A DNA stretch of 54,681 nucleotides. Origin: a virus. The DNA lies in the IMG/VR virus record IMGVR_UViG_3300028228_000201, positions 1-54,681 of that record; one strand, given 5' to 3'. Position numbers and translations under genes: made by a program. Positions 2,457-39,753 of the stretch are shown in pieces; positions within the stretch are counted from its first letter, which is position 1; the number at the start of each line of letters is the position of its first letter. The notes under the pieces are model-generated. The model ran no database searches. It was not told the DNA's origin and worked only from the letters and a program-made list of their open reading frames with translations.

Positions 2457-3320
2457 ATGGCCGAGAATAACGAAGTCGAATTAGACGTCGGTGATGCGGA
2501 AGCTGTAGACATAGAGGTGACGGAGGATATTCGTGAAGATGACGATAGTTCCGAAGGCTCTGAAGACCAGTTTTCCAAAGCTGAAACGTCAACCCAGAAG
2601 CGTATTAGTCGTCTGACTAAAAAGATGCGTGAAGCAGAACGTCGTGAGCAAGAAGCAATTAAGTATGCTCAAGCTGTTCAGGGTGAATCAAATAACCTCA
2701 AACAACGTATGACCAGTTTAGACACTCACTACGTTGCAGAGTATACCAGCCGAGTTAACACTCAAATATCCCAAGCGGAAGCTAATCTAACTCGCGCAAT
2801 TGAGTTAGGTGACAGTCAAGCAACGGTTGAAGCTCAACGAACACTTACCAGTTTAGCTATTCAACAAGACCGTGCTAATCAGGCAAAGATGCAGTCGCAG
2901 CGACAGCAACAACAAGCAGCCGCAGCTCAACAGCACCAAGCCCGTCAGCCTATGCCCGCACAGCAGCCTAAAAGACCCGACCCTAAAGCAGAGTCGTGGG
3001 CTATGCGAAACAGTTGGTTTGGCTCAGACGAAGCAATGACGTATGCTGCGTTTGGTATACACAAAAGGCTAGTCGAAGACGAAGGGTTTGACCCCAACGG
3101 AGAAGACTACTATACTGAACTTGATCGCCGTATTTCTGACAAGTTTGGAAACGGCTCAAACGGCACCAATAGACGACCCGCTCAGACAGTCATTGGCGCT
3201 TCAAGAACACCATCTGGGCGCAGTAGTGGGAGAAAGGTCCGACTCACCCCGAGCCAAGTCGCAATTGCGAAAAAATTGGGTGTGCCGCTTGAAGAATATG
3301 CGAAATACGTGAAGGAGTAA
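2457..3320 (+). CDS. Capsid scaffolding protein
   Basis: A 287-residue protein with an acidic N-terminus, a long coiled coil (KRISRLTKKMREAERREQEAIK to about residue 150), a Gln/Ala-rich linker (QRQQQQAAAAQQHQ) and a basic C-terminus (GRKVRLTPSQVAIAKKLGVP) of the type that contacts the capsid protein. Composition, length and position two genes upstream of the major capsid protein fit a scaffold. It follows an AAGGAGA ribosome site. There is no protease motif that I can see. Confidence 0.85.
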   Translation: MAENNEVELDVGDAEAVDIEVTEDIREDDDSSEGSEDQFSKAETSTQKRISRLTKKMREAERREQEAIKYAQAVQGESNNLKQRMTSLDTHYVAEYTSRVNTQISQAEANLTRAIELGDSQATVEAQRTLTSLAIQQDRANQAKMQSQRQQQQAAAAQQHQARQPMPAQQPKRPDPKAESWAMRNSWFGSDEAMTYAAFGIHKRLVEDEGFDPNGEDYYTELDRRISDKFGNGSNGTNRRPAQTVIGASRTPSGRSSGRKVRLTPSQVAIAKKLGVPLEEYAKYVKE

Positions 3321-5600: not shown

Positions 5601-6107
5601 ATGGGCGCTACGACTTTTTCAGGTCCCGTCAAATCCCTCGGTGGATTCATTTCCGCTGGTTCTGACAATGACATCAACATCACTGCTGATGACACTCTCA
5701 CCGTACAAGGCTTTGCTGGTCGGATGCTTCGTGTAAACGACGCTGACTGCAAAATCACGTTGCCCACTATTGTGGCTACGACCCCTAACGACCCCACCGC
5801 CCCTGATCAGGCCAACAATATTGGCGCTTCTTTTAGCTTCTTTATTGAAACAACCGCGACTGACTTAGACATTAAGACAGACGGTACTGATAAGTTTGTG
5901 GGTGGTCTTTATACCGGCGTTACTAACGCTACGGGTAAAACGTTTATTTCGGGTGCGGCTAACGACGTCATCACTTTAAACGGTACTACTAAGGGCGGAC
6001 TTGCCGGTTCAATGATCACCGTAACGGCCATTGCTTCAGCAAAATACGCTGTCACTGGTATTACGTTGGGTTCTGGTACGCTAGTGACTCCTTTCGCTGA
6101 CTCGTAA
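5601..6107 (+). CDS. Virion structural protein, beta-rich
   Basis: A 168-residue protein that begins MGATTFSGPVKSLGGF, rich in Gly, Thr, Ala and Asp, with alternating beta patterns (ITADDTLTVQGFAGRMLRV, GLAGSMITVTAIASAKYAV). A GAGG ribosome site lies upstream. It is the first gene after the capsid terminator. Proteins of this type follow capsid genes in many marine phages and are found in virions; a head-surface or fibre role is likely but unproven here. Confidence 0.7.
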   Translation: MGATTFSGPVKSLGGFISAGSDNDINITADDTLTVQGFAGRMLRVNDADCKITLPTIVATTPNDPTAPDQANNIGASFSFFIETTATDLDIKTDGTDKFVGGLYTGVTNATGKTFISGAANDVITLNGTTKGGLAGSMITVTAIASAKYAVTGITLGSGTLVTPFADS

Positions 6108-29947: not shown

Positions 29948-31396
29948 TTACCGCAACCAACTCTTAGTATCTTCACGTAGTACCTGACCTGCTATATCTA
30001 CCTTATCCCTTAAAGCTTGTAAGATTTTCTCGTCGATGGTGCCGGGGGAAACTAAGTCAATGTACGTCACTTTGTTGGTTTGTCCGATACGGTGCGCTCT
30101 ATCCTCTGATTGCAGTCTTATCTCCAAATCGTAACTGTTGCTAAAATAAATAACGGTATTTGCCGCAGTTAGCGTAATGCCATAACCGCCTGTCTTGGGC
30201 TGTCCCACAAAAAACCGCAACGGGTTCTCCGGGTCTTGGAAAGCATTAACAATCTCCTGCCTTTCGTCTTGAGGTGTATCCCCATAATAGGTTGCGACCG
30301 AATCGGGCCCGAAACGGTCGCGCAGGGCCTCGGCTATCTGTTGGATGTCGTGCGTATACGTCGCCCAAATGATTGCTTTACCCTGTAACTCTTCAGCCAC
30401 GTTCATAAGCTCGTTTAACCGGTTACTTTTTACGAGCTGTATCTCACCTTCGTCAGGCATGAGGTGGCCGCAGCAAATCTGCTGCAAACGCATAATCTGT
30501 GTCAGTACACTAGCAGTTGTTGCCAACTCCCCGCTTTCTAACTTAGCCAAAGCTAACTTTTTCATCTGCCTATATAGACGGTCCTGCTCCAAGGTCAGTT
30601 CCACGTCGCGCCGAATATACACCTTGGCAGGTAAATCTAGGCAGTCCATCTTGAGCACCCTGTTACTAAAGGTGTCTAACTTTTCAGCAAGCTCGTCTAA
30701 ACGACGGTAACCCATGATCTGCTGAAAGCTGCGATGGCCCATGGTCCGCTGTTGGATGTTCGCGTACCGTGATTGGAAAGCAGAATAGCTATTAAAGCCT
30801 AGCGACTTATCCTCCAGAAAGGCGCACTGGCTAAACAAATCCATAGGGCTCTTGGTAATAGGTGATCCCGTTAATATGCGGCGATACTTAGACCGTTTCT
30901 GTAAGGCCATGATGTTCTTGGTCCTAGCTGCTTTACGGTTCTTTATAGTTGTAGACTCGTCCACAATAACCATGTTCGCCGGGTTCTGATACAGGAAGGC
31001 AGTTGCAGCATCTGTTCCACGCGGGCTAGAAAACGCCTCTACGTTCATAACAAAAATCTTCAGGAAGGGCTCTCTATCGACAATAAAGTCAGTAAGCTCC
31101 TCTTCAAACCGTTTAGTTTTAGAGGGGGTCCATCGACACACCTTACGAGGTATGCGCTTTGGCAGGTGGATAGGTATCTCACCTTTGACCCAGTTGTCGT
31201 AAACACCTTTCGGCGCTATAATTAACACGGAATTTAACTTCCCCGCTTCATATAATACAGCCATCGTATCGATAGCTACCTTGGTTTTCCCCGTGCCCAT
31301 TTCCATGAACAGCGCGTAGTATTCCGCGGACCACGAGTCTTCCAGCGCAACCCGTTGGTGGTCATAAGGAGTAGTCTCGTAGTTATAGCCCTGCAT
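29948..31396 (-). CDS. SNF2-family DNA helicase/translocase
   Basis: A ~482-residue SF2 ATPase, the only minus-strand gene. Helicase motifs in order: Q-like YDHQRVAL, Walker A MEMGTGKTK, LIIAPKGVYDNW (Ia), Walker B VIVDEST (DEST replaces DEAH/DEGH), LTGSPITKSP (III), then domain 2 with IIWATYTHDIQQIAEAL (IV), GYGITLTAANTVIYFS (V) and EDRAHRIGQTNKV (VI). It probably remodels DNA or protein-DNA complexes during replication or recombination. ATG 31396 is preferred: GAGGAA lies 6 bases upstream, while the longer start at 31429 falls at or before the predicted transcription start. Transcribed from the divergent region 31423-31463. Confidence 0.9.
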   Translation of the reverse strand: MQGYNYETTPYDHQRVALEDSWSAEYYALFMEMGTGKTKVAIDTMAVLYEAGKLNSVLIIAPKGVYDNWVKGEIPIHLPKRIPRKVCRWTPSKTKRFEEELTDFIVDREPFLKIFVMNVEAFSSPRGTDAATAFLYQNPANMVIVDESTTIKNRKAARTKNIMALQKRSKYRRILTGSPITKSPMDLFSQCAFLEDKSLGFNSYSAFQSRYANIQQRTMGHRSFQQIMGYRRLDELAEKLDTFSNRVLKMDCLDLPAKVYIRRDVELTLEQDRLYRQMKKLALAKLESGELATTASVLTQIMRLQQICCGHLMPDEGEIQLVKSNRLNELMNVAEELQGKAIIWATYTHDIQQIAEALRDRFGPDSVATYYGDTPQDERQEIVNAFQDPENPLRFFVGQPKTGGYGITLTAANTVIYFSNSYDLEIRLQSEDRAHRIGQTNKVTYIDLVSPGTIDEKILQALRDKVDIAGQVLREDTKSWLR

Positions 31397-31422: not shown

Positions 31423-31463
31423 TTGACATGTGTAGGATATAAGATAATATCTACATTTGTCAA
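31423..31463. promoter_or_regulatory. Divergent promoter/operator dyad between SNF2 and replication operons
   Basis: A 41-bp imperfect inverted repeat. The left arm reads TTGACATGTGTAGGATAT and the right arm, on the other strand, TTGACAAATGTAGATAT. Each arm begins with a perfect -35 hexamer. Plus-strand -10: TAATAT at 31445-31450 (16-bp spacing). Minus-strand -10: TATATC at about 31441-31436 (16 bp). The two promoters overlap face to face, so polymerase at one should exclude the other, and a symmetric repressor could bind the dyad. Confidence 0.7.
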
Positions 31464-31501
31464 GGCCCAAAAGGTGCCTTTAACCACGAAGGAGAGAAGT
31501 T

Positions 31502-32083
31502 ATGAATGAAGACTTAACGAACATGATGGAGGCCGACTTTGAAAATAAGCAGGCAACCAGTGTTGAGAAGATAGACCAACAAGGCCTTACCTCGGTAGCC
31601 GGGTTGGCCCGCCAAATCAGAGACAAAGAAGTAAAGATTGAAACTCTTGAGAAATCTCTCAAGGAATCCAAGAAAGACCTTCAGAAGCTCACTGATGAAG
31701 AAATGCCTGCAATGCTTGCTGAAATTGGTATCTCTTCGTTTGCCCTAGATGACGGTAGTACCGTCGAAGTCAAACAAACGTATGGAGCATCCATACTCGT
31801 TCAAAATCGCCCAACCGCTTATGAGTGGTTACGTGACCACCAGTACGACGACATTATTAAAAACACTGTCATGTGCCAGTTCGGTCGGGGTGAAGATGAT
31901 CAAGCAAGCGCATTCTCACAGTTCGCAGAAACTCAGGGGTTTATACCACAACAGAAAACTGAGATTCACCCTCAGACGCTACGTGCGTTTGTGAAAGAAC
32001 GATGTGAGGCAGGAGAGGAGTTCCCAATGGAGTTATTTGGGGCTTGGGTAGGTCAACGTGCAGTTATTAAACGAGGAAAATAA
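31502..32083 (+). CDS. First gene of replication operon, unknown coiled-coil protein
   Basis: A 193-residue protein. A coiled coil (GLARQIRDKEVKIETLEKSL, KESKKDLQKLTDEEMPAML) precedes a mixed domain with FALDDGSTVEVKQTYGASIL, AYEWLRDHQYDDIIKN and HPQTLRAFVKERCEAGEEFP. It follows the divergent promoter by about 50 bases with an AAGGAGAG site, and lies before the SSB-like gene. From memory such proteins precede ssDNA-binding proteins in related phages; the function is unknown but replication-linked. Confidence 0.75.
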   Translation: MNEDLTNMMEADFENKQATSVEKIDQQGLTSVAGLARQIRDKEVKIETLEKSLKESKKDLQKLTDEEMPAMLAEIGISSFALDDGSTVEVKQTYGASILVQNRPTAYEWLRDHQYDDIIKNTVMCQFGRGEDDQASAFSQFAETQGFIPQQKTEIHPQTLRAFVKERCEAGEEFPMELFGAWVGQRAVIKRGK

Positions 32084-32084
32084 A

Positions 32085-32861
32085 ATGACCCAAGCAAAAG
32101 AAGTAGCAAAAAAAGAATCAACCGCAATGGCGGAATTTGATCCATTAATGTTTGAAGCCGACGCAGGTCAGGGCATGGAGAACATGGGACAAGAAGACTT
32201 AGCTCTTCCTTTCCTAAAAGTTCTTTCAGGCAATGACCCTATATTGGACGAAAACGAAGTGGCTCGTAAGGGTGATATTTACAACACCGTAACCGGAACA
32301 GTTTACAAAGGTAAGGAAGGTATCCGCGTGATCCCTTGTGCTTATCAGCGTAGATTTATTCAATGGGCACCCCGTGGCATGGGGAGCGGTGCACCCACGG
32401 CAATTTACGAACCCGGTGACGTGCGTCCCGAAACAGCTCGCTCTAGCGATGACAACAAAGACTATGTTGCCGACGGTAGTGGTGAGTATATCGAGGAAAC
32501 ACATCAGCACTTCGTAGTCCTAGTTGGGGAAGACGGAGCATTCGAGACAGCTTTGATTGCAATGAAATCTACGCAGCTTAAAAAGTCGCGTAAGTGGAAT
32601 AGCATGATGGCGTCACGTTCGATGCAAGGATCAAAAGGGCCGTTTACCCCTCCACGCTTCTCACACATCTACCACCTGAAAACGATCTCTGAGGAAAACT
32701 CCAAAGGTTCGTGGCACGGTTGGGAAATGTCTGTGGATAGTGCCATTGCGGATGCTGGCCTGTACGGTAGAGCAAAAGCCTTTGCCGACAGTATCACTAG
32801 CGGTGACGTTGTTGTTAAACATACGGAGGAAGAAAGTCCAAACGCTGACATACCATTTTAA
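32085..32861 (+). CDS. Putative single-stranded DNA-binding protein
   Basis: A 258-residue protein ending ESPNADIPF, the acidic DIPF tip used by bacterial SSBs to recruit partners. The body has LALPFLKVLSGNDPIL, GKEGIRVIPCAYQRRFIQW, a beta region (HFVVLVGEDGAFETALIAMKST) and basic KSRKWNSMMASRS, compatible with an OB-type DNA-binding core. ATG 32085 is chosen for its GAGGAAA site; the longer in-frame start at 32058 lies in the previous gene. The location between the promoter and primase, and the following terminator, fit an abundant replication protein. Confidence 0.7.
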   Translation: MTQAKEVAKKESTAMAEFDPLMFEADAGQGMENMGQEDLALPFLKVLSGNDPILDENEVARKGDIYNTVTGTVYKGKEGIRVIPCAYQRRFIQWAPRGMGSGAPTAIYEPGDVRPETARSSDDNKDYVADGSGEYIEETHQHFVVLVGEDGAFETALIAMKSTQLKKSRKWNSMMASRSMQGSKGPFTPPRFSHIYHLKTISEENSKGSWHGWEMSVDSAIADAGLYGRAKAFADSITSGDVVVKHTEEESPNADIPF

Positions 32862-32874
32862 AAAACTAGCGTTC

Positions 32875-32903
32875 AGGTGGGGCATGGTGCCCCACCTTTT
32901 TTT
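32875..32903 (+). terminator. Rho-independent terminator after the SSB-like gene
   Basis: A 10-bp perfect stem AGGTGGGGCA / TGCCCCACCT with a 3-base TGG loop, then a run of T to 32903. It lies 14 bases after the SSB-like stop and before the primase gene. Partial termination would give more SSB than primase from the 31.4 kb promoter. Confidence 0.92.
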
Positions 32904-32920
32904 CCGTATGGGGGCAAGTA

Positions 32921-34459
32921 ATGTCAGTAGAAAAATTCATGGCCATATTCGATGGCCTCAAGGTAGCTCACGGCTACTTTAAGATTGAAAAAACCGGTGC
33001 TAACGGCAAGGCCCAAGGTAAGGCGGGCGTTCTTCGCGAACCTCAGACCAAACAACTTTGGGAAGACCATTTAAGCGGCACGGGTAACGGTCTTGGTATT
33101 ATTCCAATAAACGAAGAGAACAACTGTAAGTGGGGCTGTATAGATATTGATCAATACCCCCTAGATCACAAATTGTTGGTGGATAAAATCCGCCGTATGA
33201 AATTACCCCTTGTTGTGTGCCGCTCTAAATCAGGCGGGGCACATTGCTTCTTGTTCACCACGGCGTGGACTGAAGCCAAAGACATGCAGAAAGCTCTCCA
33301 ATCTATGGCCGCAGCATTAGGCTACGGTGAGAGCGAGATATTCCCAAAGCAGATAAGGTTGCACCTAGACCGTGGCGATGTAGGTAACTTTCTTAACCTA
33401 CCTTATTACGATCACGAAGGAGGGCTACGGTACGCCTTTTTAGACGATGGCACCTCTGCAACTATCGAAGAGTTTATAGAAATACACCAAAGATTTGTTC
33501 AAACTCCCGAAGAAGTCGTTAAGCTACAAGTCATTGGGGGTGGTGAAACCAAGCTGCTTCAGGACGGTCCCCCATGTTTACAAATACTCTGTAAGCAGGG
33601 CATTAGCGAAGGCGGACGCAATAATGGGTTGTTCAATATCGGGGTGTATCTACGAAAAGCGTATCCAGATAGTTGGGAGTCAGAAATACTTCGGTACAAC
33701 ATGGAGTACATTGCTCCGCCGTTACCGCTCGGTGAGGTCAACGTAGTTGCCAAGCAGGTAGAGCGGAAAGATTACGCCTATAAGTGCAACGATTCCCCTA
33801 TCAACTCACACTGTAACAAAGAGCTTTGCCGGACACGTAAGTTCGGCATTGGTGCTGCGATTGCAGGCGCTACTATTGCTAATCTCCGGAAATATAACTC
33901 TACTCCACCTGTGTGGTTTATGGACGTAAACGGCGAGCCTTTGGAAATGGACACTGACGCTTTAATGAATCAGATGACCTTCCAGAAAGCCTGTATGGAG
34001 CAGCTTAACTTCATGCCAAGGTCAGTGGCTAAACAACAGTGGGAAAGCCGTATAAGCACCCTCCTGAACGAGATGAAGGACAATGAAAGCGCCATCATGG
34101 AAGTAGCTGTAGACGCCAGTATAAGTGGCCAGTTCTACGACTATCTTGAAGAGTTCTGTCGCCATTTGCAGGTCGCACAGGATAAGGAAGAAATACTACT
34201 ACGTCGTCCTTGGACAGATGAAGAGCAGAATATTACTTTCTTTAGATTAAAAGACTTCGAGAACTTCCTGAAGAAGAATAAGTTCTTCGAGTACAAGTCT
34301 CACCGTATTGCTCAACGTCTTCGTGATATCAACGGCTCTAGTGTTGTTCTCAAGATTAAAGGTCGTGCTGTTCGTGTTTGGCAGATACCTGCGTTTGATA
34401 CTTCCGACATTGATATTGATACACCCAAGTTCGGAAATCAGCAGGGAGCACCTTTCTAA
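32921..34459 (+). CDS. AEP-superfamily primase (PrimPol-like)
   Basis: A 512-residue protein with archaeo-eukaryotic primase motifs: motif I WGCIDIDQYPLD (D-x-D metal ligands, about residues 70-73), motif II CRSKSGGAHCFLF (SGGxH, about 100-106), and downstream FPKQIRLHLDRGDVGNFLNLPYYD read in two parts, providing the third motif region. A Cys/His cluster (CNDSPINSHCNKELC, about residues 291-305) may bind zinc or an Fe-S centre. No helicase Walker motifs are present, so it is a stand-alone primase or primase-polymerase. It begins replication with the PolA enzyme encoded downstream. Own start just after the terminator; stop overlaps the next ATG. Confidence 0.8.
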   Translation: MSVEKFMAIFDGLKVAHGYFKIEKTGANGKAQGKAGVLREPQTKQLWEDHLSGTGNGLGIIPINEENNCKWGCIDIDQYPLDHKLLVDKIRRMKLPLVVCRSKSGGAHCFLFTTAWTEAKDMQKALQSMAAALGYGESEIFPKQIRLHLDRGDVGNFLNLPYYDHEGGLRYAFLDDGTSATIEEFIEIHQRFVQTPEEVVKLQVIGGGETKLLQDGPPCLQILCKQGISEGGRNNGLFNIGVYLRKAYPDSWESEILRYNMEYIAPPLPLGEVNVVAKQVERKDYAYKCNDSPINSHCNKELCRTRKFGIGAAIAGATIANLRKYNSTPPVWFMDVNGEPLEMDTDALMNQMTFQKACMEQLNFMPRSVAKQQWESRISTLLNEMKDNESAIMEVAVDASISGQFYDYLEEFCRHLQVAQDKEEILLRRPWTDEEQNITFFRLKDFENFLKKNKFFEYKSHRIAQRLRDINGSSVVLKIKGRAVRVWQIPAFDTSDIDIDTPKFGNQQGAPF

Positions 34460-34623
34460 TGGTCGAGTTAACTTTTGAAGAATATAGCAAACGCCGTAAT
34501 GCGGAGATCATTCAGATGATTGACAATGATCTTATGACGATGACGGCAGTCGCTAAATACTTTGGTATCTCTAAGCAGAGAGTCCAACAGATATATAGCC
34601 GGGAGAAGGGCAAGGATGTTTAG
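34459..34623 (+). CDS. Small HTH protein, sigma70-region-4-like
   Basis: A 54-residue protein: MVELTFEEYSKRRNAEIIQM, then MTAVAKYFGISKQRVQQIYSRE, a helix-turn-helix of the kind in sigma factor region 4 (A..fGIS..RV.QI). It is basic at the end. It could bind DNA or host RNA polymerase to shift transcription. Its ATG overlaps the primase stop and its end overlaps the helicase start, so all three are translationally coupled. Confidence 0.7.
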   Translation: MVELTFEEYSKRRNAEIIQMIDNDLMTMTAVAKYFGISKQRVQQIYSREKGKDV

Positions 34624-39492: not shown

Positions 39493-39677
39493 TGGAATTA
39501 AAACCAATCGATGAGGCACAAACAGAAGCCGAAAAAGTTTTTTTGAAAGGGAAGACGTTCAACGCGCCTCATCCGTCAAAACAAAAAAGGGATGAATTGT
39601 ATAAATGGGAAAGAGACCTTTACCACGTGGCTTGCGCTTTAAACAGGCGCGTGGAAGCCATAACAATGAAACCTTGA
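39492..39677 (+). CDS. Small charged protein, unknown
   Basis: A 61-residue protein (MELKPIDEAQTEAEKVFLKG, then PHPSKQKRDELYKWERDLYH). The GGAGAAAGAG ribosome site is inside the previous gene, and ATG 39492 overlaps its stop; the longer frame from 39417 is rejected. Charged and helical; no family recognised. Confidence 0.6.
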   Translation: MELKPIDEAQTEAEKVFLKGKTFNAPHPSKQKRDELYKWERDLYHVACALNRRVEAITMKP

Positions 39678-39691
39678 AACCCGGCTTTTCC

Positions 39692-39720
39692 TTGCATTCC
39701 TATATATCTTCCTATATTAT
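39692..39720 (+). promoter_or_regulatory. Sigma70-like promoter before the RHH regulator gene
   Basis: -35 TTGCAT (39692-39697), 17-bp spacer, -10 TATTAT (39715-39720). The 12-mer TATATTATCTTA covering the -10 occurs again in the promoter region at 46429. Transcription would begin ~25 bases before the gene at 39754. Confidence 0.6.
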
Positions 39721-39753
39721 CTTAGATATCCGGGGGCATCGGAGAGATAAAAC

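Follow-up and report, generated by a model that had tools for sequence, protein, structure and literature searches.

RESULTS

A dyad between the SNF2 and gp33-like genes

The window analyzed here is an IMG/VR virus record of 54,681 bp. Between a leftward SNF2-family helicase gene and a rightward gp33-like gene, it contains a dyad that reads TTGACATGTGTAGGATATAAGATAATATCTACATTTGTCAA (Table 1). The layout is TTGACA-N29-TGTCAA, with perfect 6-bp inverted TTGACA hexamers as the outer arms, and 26 of the 41 columns are self-complementary without gaps. A previous sequence-only reading had described two arms, each opening with a perfect TTGACA; the sequence bears this out, and the arm extensions quoted there (TGTGTAGGATAT and AATGTAGATAT) match as well. 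The pattern TTGACA-N25..33-TGTCAA was found once in the window, compared with a mean of 0.06 matches expected by chance from dinucleotide shuffles. The dyad pattern was also present at one place per record in eight of eight relative records, the extra matches being the same site on the opposite strand.

The mechanically assigned start of the SNF2 open reading frame (ORF), position 31429, falls within the dyad. The ATG at 31396 is the likely true start, on the basis of an AGAGGA upstream and of agreement with the starts in relatives; the dyad, about 30 bp from that start, would thus be intergenic. On the right, the gp33-like and gp34-like genes are followed by a primase-like gene, a UvrD-like helicase gene, and a family A DNA polymerase gene. 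The predicted gp33 structure (mean pLDDT of 80) had no PDB fold match at an E value of ≤0.001, and the gp34 prediction, with a mean pLDDT of only 40, was set aside.

A palindrome adjoining replication genes might serve as a replication origin or a single-strand initiation structure. However, checks of GC skew and DnaA boxes at the site were both negative, with neither a GC-skew turning point nor a DnaA-box cluster at the dyad, and an origin there was rejected. The conserved positions, moreover, are the promoter hexamer positions described below, and we regard such a role as extremely improbable.

Table 1 Features of the dyad locus, in window coordinates
Feature	Position	Strand	Details
SNF2-family helicase gene	29948..31396	-	leftward product
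Dyad, two overlapping oppositely directed promoters (predicted)	31423..31463	.	41 bp
Rightward promoter -35 hexamer	31423..31428	+	TTGACA
Leftward start (predicted)	about 31427-31429	-	inferred
Leftward -10 region (predicted)	31434..31441	-	TATCCT (18-bp spacer) or TATATC (16-bp spacer)
Rightward promoter -10 (predicted)	31445..31450	+	TAATAT, 16-bp spacer
Rightward start (predicted)	about 31457-31459	+	inferred
Leftward promoter -35 hexamer	31458..31463	-	TTGACA
Bulged leader hairpin	31462..31480	+	AAGGCCC-AAAA-GG-U-GCCUU
Shine-Dalgarno-like sequence ahead of gp33	31490..31494	+	AGGAG
gp33-like gene	31502..32083	+	DUF7307, phrog_2378; Pam3 gp33-like
gp34-like gene	32085..32861	+	Pam3_Gp34, phrog_2402
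Conserved intrinsic terminator (predicted)	32875..32904	+	between gp34 and primase-like gene

Anatomy of the predicted promoters

Comparison of 43 distinct 41-mers revealed that the outer TTGAC/GTCAA columns are near-invariant, that columns 16 to 19 and 23 to 28 are mostly conserved, and that columns 7 to 15 and 29 to 34 are more variable. This pattern fits a rightward promoter of the form TTGACA-16-TAWTAT and a leftward promoter of the form TTGACA-16-TATAYT or TTGACA-18-TATCCT. The two -10 elements lie side by side at the dyad center, in columns 14 to 19 (or 12 to 17) and 23 to 28, without overlap, and promoter hexamers in both orientations overlap in one short stretch, which is the bidirectional sigma70 layout. 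With consensus hexamer weights, the mean promoter scores of 61 distinct dyads were 11.7 and 12.2 in the two directions, compared with 8.5 and 8.8 for controls in which the arms were preserved and the spacer was shuffled. The predicted starts fall in or beside the opposite -35 hexamer, so the polymerase footprints should overlap fully. The earlier proposal of face-to-face, fully overlapping promoters, here read as sigma70-like, is supported by the conserved arms between divergent genes, and the full overlap and conserved arms make mutual exclusion plausible.

Conservation of the dyad among relatives

By regular expression, the element was present in 153 of 161 stretches (the window plus 160 loci, many being two loci of one contig), a level of conservation that places it beyond chance; 69 distinct versions were seen. 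The length was exactly 41 bp in 56 of 61 distinct dyads. Eighty SNF2 relatives were collected, one of which (L057) had no upstream sequence. Among the 79 usable IMG/VR relatives, 73 carried the dyad between divergent SNF2 and gp33-like (DUF7307) genes; the pattern matched 71, and L016 and L017 keep the element with a decayed right arm. Six (L006 to L011) lacked the element upstream of SNF2. The gp33 loci of that group (L096 to L100) still have an intact dyad upstream of gp33, and no leftward ORF of at least 60 amino acids was seen beside it in one listed locus. Since gp33 keeps an intact dyad there without an adjoining leftward ORF, SNF2 has evidently moved in this group. In these contigs SNF2 follows gp33 in the same orientation, and the intact dyad has small ORFs on its left. 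In 023Pt_psg01, a distant relative, the pattern TTGACA-N25-TGTCAA separates an SNF2-like helicase gene from a gene that runs the opposite way.

Only one direction might work, the other arm being retained as part of the rightward start site and the base of the hairpin, with SNF2 transcribed weakly or from elsewhere. The right arm does share bases with the start region and with the hairpin stem, which partly confounds its conservation, and the leftward -10 is often weak among relatives, as are both of the candidates in the window. Low scores in one direction were obtained for L032, L043, L056, and L067, and the leftward -35 consensus is lost in L103 and L104, in a group (L016 and L017) where SNF2 is still divergent. 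The dyad is also kept where SNF2 has moved; arm persistence in L096 to L100 says little about selection because the contigs are nearly one lineage. However, the hairpin stem does not include the TTTGTC part, which is mostly retained, leftward scores exceed those of the shuffled controls, and no other leftward promoter was seen in the window sequence ahead of SNF2, the start of which is so close to the dyad. A single working direction is therefore considered unlikely.

Test of an operator role

The dyad had also been suggested to be an operator bound by a dimeric repressor, for example the ribbon-helix-helix (RHH) protein. On this reading, a phage repressor would shut both genes, and the match to promoter hexamers would be secondary. 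The symmetric arms, the conservation of the RHH gene in 11 of 11 relatives, and the word ATAWTATC, common to the RHH gene promoter and the dyad, would agree with this. However, mirrored inner positions did not covary, and inner arm symmetry was not above that of shuffled half pairing (96% of permutations reached the observed value). ATAWTATC fits -10 boxes, and the longer word TATTATCTTATA occurred at the dyad and nowhere else across the relatives searched. The symmetry expected in relatives thus held for the hexamer arms and failed inside them. A dimeric-repressor operator was rejected because half-site symmetry beyond the promoter hexamers is not maintained across relatives; nothing specific ties the RHH protein to the dyad, the 8-bp word being the only link to its gene promoter, and we view this role as quite unlikely. 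The RHH gene promoter (positions 39660 to 39753; L198 to L207) has a conserved sequence of its own, of the type TTGCATTCT...TCCTATAATATC.

An inverted core in one clade

In two types of dyad (L018/L020/L021/L152 and L019/L131), the core agrees with that of the other dyads once it is reverse complemented, with reverse scores of 16 and 25 and forward scores of -30 and -21, and the flanks and hairpin keep the usual orientation. The two -10 types swap sides in this clade, and each direction continues to score as a promoter. The SNF2 tree groups L018, L019, and L020 on a single supported branch. When the -10 windows are left aside, the reverse match in two related sequences has P values of 0.0024 and 0.03. 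Convergent re-evolution appears less likely than inversion of the core. No near-identical pair with both core orientations was seen, and the inverted core is therefore not evidence of phase variation. A scan with a strict inverted-core pattern returned no matches and sets no bound on the number of inverted cores, since the pattern is not an exact fit to the clade's own sequences.

The inverted clade also bears on a further possibility, that the dyad is a dedicated two-way switch in which the -35 arms are targeted by a sigma-region-4-like helix-turn-helix (HTH) protein of the phage, expression of the replication region flips the direction of firing, and the whole module can flip while keeping both promoters; it is this invertibility that the clade suggests. 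The candidate is a 54-amino-acid HTH protein encoded at positions 34459 to 34623, between the primase and UvrD genes. It matched HTH_23 (2.5e-6), with Sigma70_r4 (5e-5) just under the cutoff; its best PDB matches were weak ones to sigma region 4 (E value of 0.12), and 10 of 10 relatives gave a match to it, in three cases only a weak one. Action of this protein at the -35 boxes is speculation, and the switch as a whole is very unlikely in our judgment.

The leader hairpin and the rightward unit

About 3 nt past the predicted rightward start, the leader contains a hairpin, an addition to the sequence-only reading, which had missed it. Its general form is AAGGCCC-NNNN-GG-U/A-GCCTT, with a one-base bulge. 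Across 26 distinct sequences, standard pairs occupied 97.8% of the hairpin pair cells. Three of the seven pairs had double changes (as many were seen in 1 of 500 shuffles), three of the seven never vary, and the covariation score was reached by 0 of 500 shuffles. These compensatory changes support the stem, as in a conserved structured RNA leader. The fold of the window's own hairpin is not unusually stable (z of -0.79), no Rfam model matched, and no second copy was found within the window. The hairpin may protect the 5' end of the mRNA; alternatively, it may be a protein-binding site.

Directly past gp34, a GC-rich stem followed by a T-rich run was present in 21 of the 21 loci read, including the window, with the primase start a few tens of bases beyond. 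This conserved terminator delimits the rightward unit as gp33-gp34. The earlier proposal that the rightward promoter fires the replication operon thus stands for a rightward unit and must be shortened to these two genes; the replication genes probably depend on read-through or on promoters inside gp34.

The same geometry elsewhere

A strict layout pattern matched 70 viral stretches and 13 sites in the genome_contigs collection (84,980 species), both being raw counts. A leader regular expression placed 60 of the 70 viral stretches in the dyad family; one of the 60 appears unrelated, and three stretches that it left out (L300, L301, and L354) resemble members, giving about 62 of 70 after correction. 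Another virus contig (L311, positions 3085 to 3125) shows this face-to-face arrangement of -35 hexamers, with divergent ORFs of other kinds on either side, and a Desulfosporosinus contig (L375, positions 5839 to 5879) has a near-perfect long palindrome of this geometry.

DISCUSSION

The dyad is probably a symmetric pair of host sigma70-type promoters on the same 41 bp, accompanied by a leader hairpin and a terminator and serving competing units. Host sigma70 RNA polymerase would use both promoters. From the rightward one (TTGACA-16-TAWTAT), a leader with a near-5'-terminal hairpin, which may shield the 5' end, would begin the gp33-gp34 mRNA; most transcripts would stop at the conserved terminator, and some would read through into the replication genes. 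From the leftward one (TTGACA plus either a TATAYT-like -10 at 16-bp spacing or a TATCCT-like one at 18), SNF2 mRNA would be made. Because both footprints span the whole dyad, a polymerase bound in one orientation should shut out the other, leaving the two units in competition for initiation.

Inversion is known to arise by template switching between inverted repeats (PMC8604942), and the phage core is likewise inverted between inverted-repeat arms with unchanged flanks. The published inversions are from yeast, with arms longer than 9 bp around spacers of only a few base pairs, whereas the phage dyad has perfect arms of about 6 to 7 bp around a 29-bp core, and the evidence for an inversion event comes from a single clade.

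5'-terminal stem-loops stabilize bacterial mRNA (reviewed in PMC3997798). The phage hairpin resembles them in its position, only a few nucleotides from the predicted 5' end, and differs in having a conserved bulge and compensatory changes, features that a protein-binding site could also explain.

The closest comparison is with the bacterial bidirectional promoters of Warman, Grainger, and colleagues (PMC12825309, PMC10268837), in which divergent starts lie 7 to 25 bp apart and the -10 elements overlap reciprocally or are shared. Both are pseudo-symmetric DNA; two polymerase orientations cannot be occupied together on those promoters, nor, as predicted, on the dyad, and those promoters often lie between divergent genes, as the dyad does. 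In the dyad, by comparison, the predicted starts are about 28 to 32 bp apart, the -10 elements are adjacent rather than shared, and near-consensus -35 hexamers on both sides form the palindrome arms. Judged from hexamer positions alone, it falls outside the published definition (starts 7 to 25 bp apart, shared -10) and is therefore a variant of the bidirectional promoter, not a member by that definition. Steric exclusion has been stated for bidirectional promoters, and the basal level of five tested E. coli examples was too weak for polymerase competition (PMC12825309). Facing near-consensus -35 boxes, a length fixed at 41 bp in most versions, and a covarying leader hairpin set the dyad apart. 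With its natural variants (a decayed arm, a moved gene, and an inverted core), it offers a compact natural test of how polymerase competition sets the balance of two phage transcription units.
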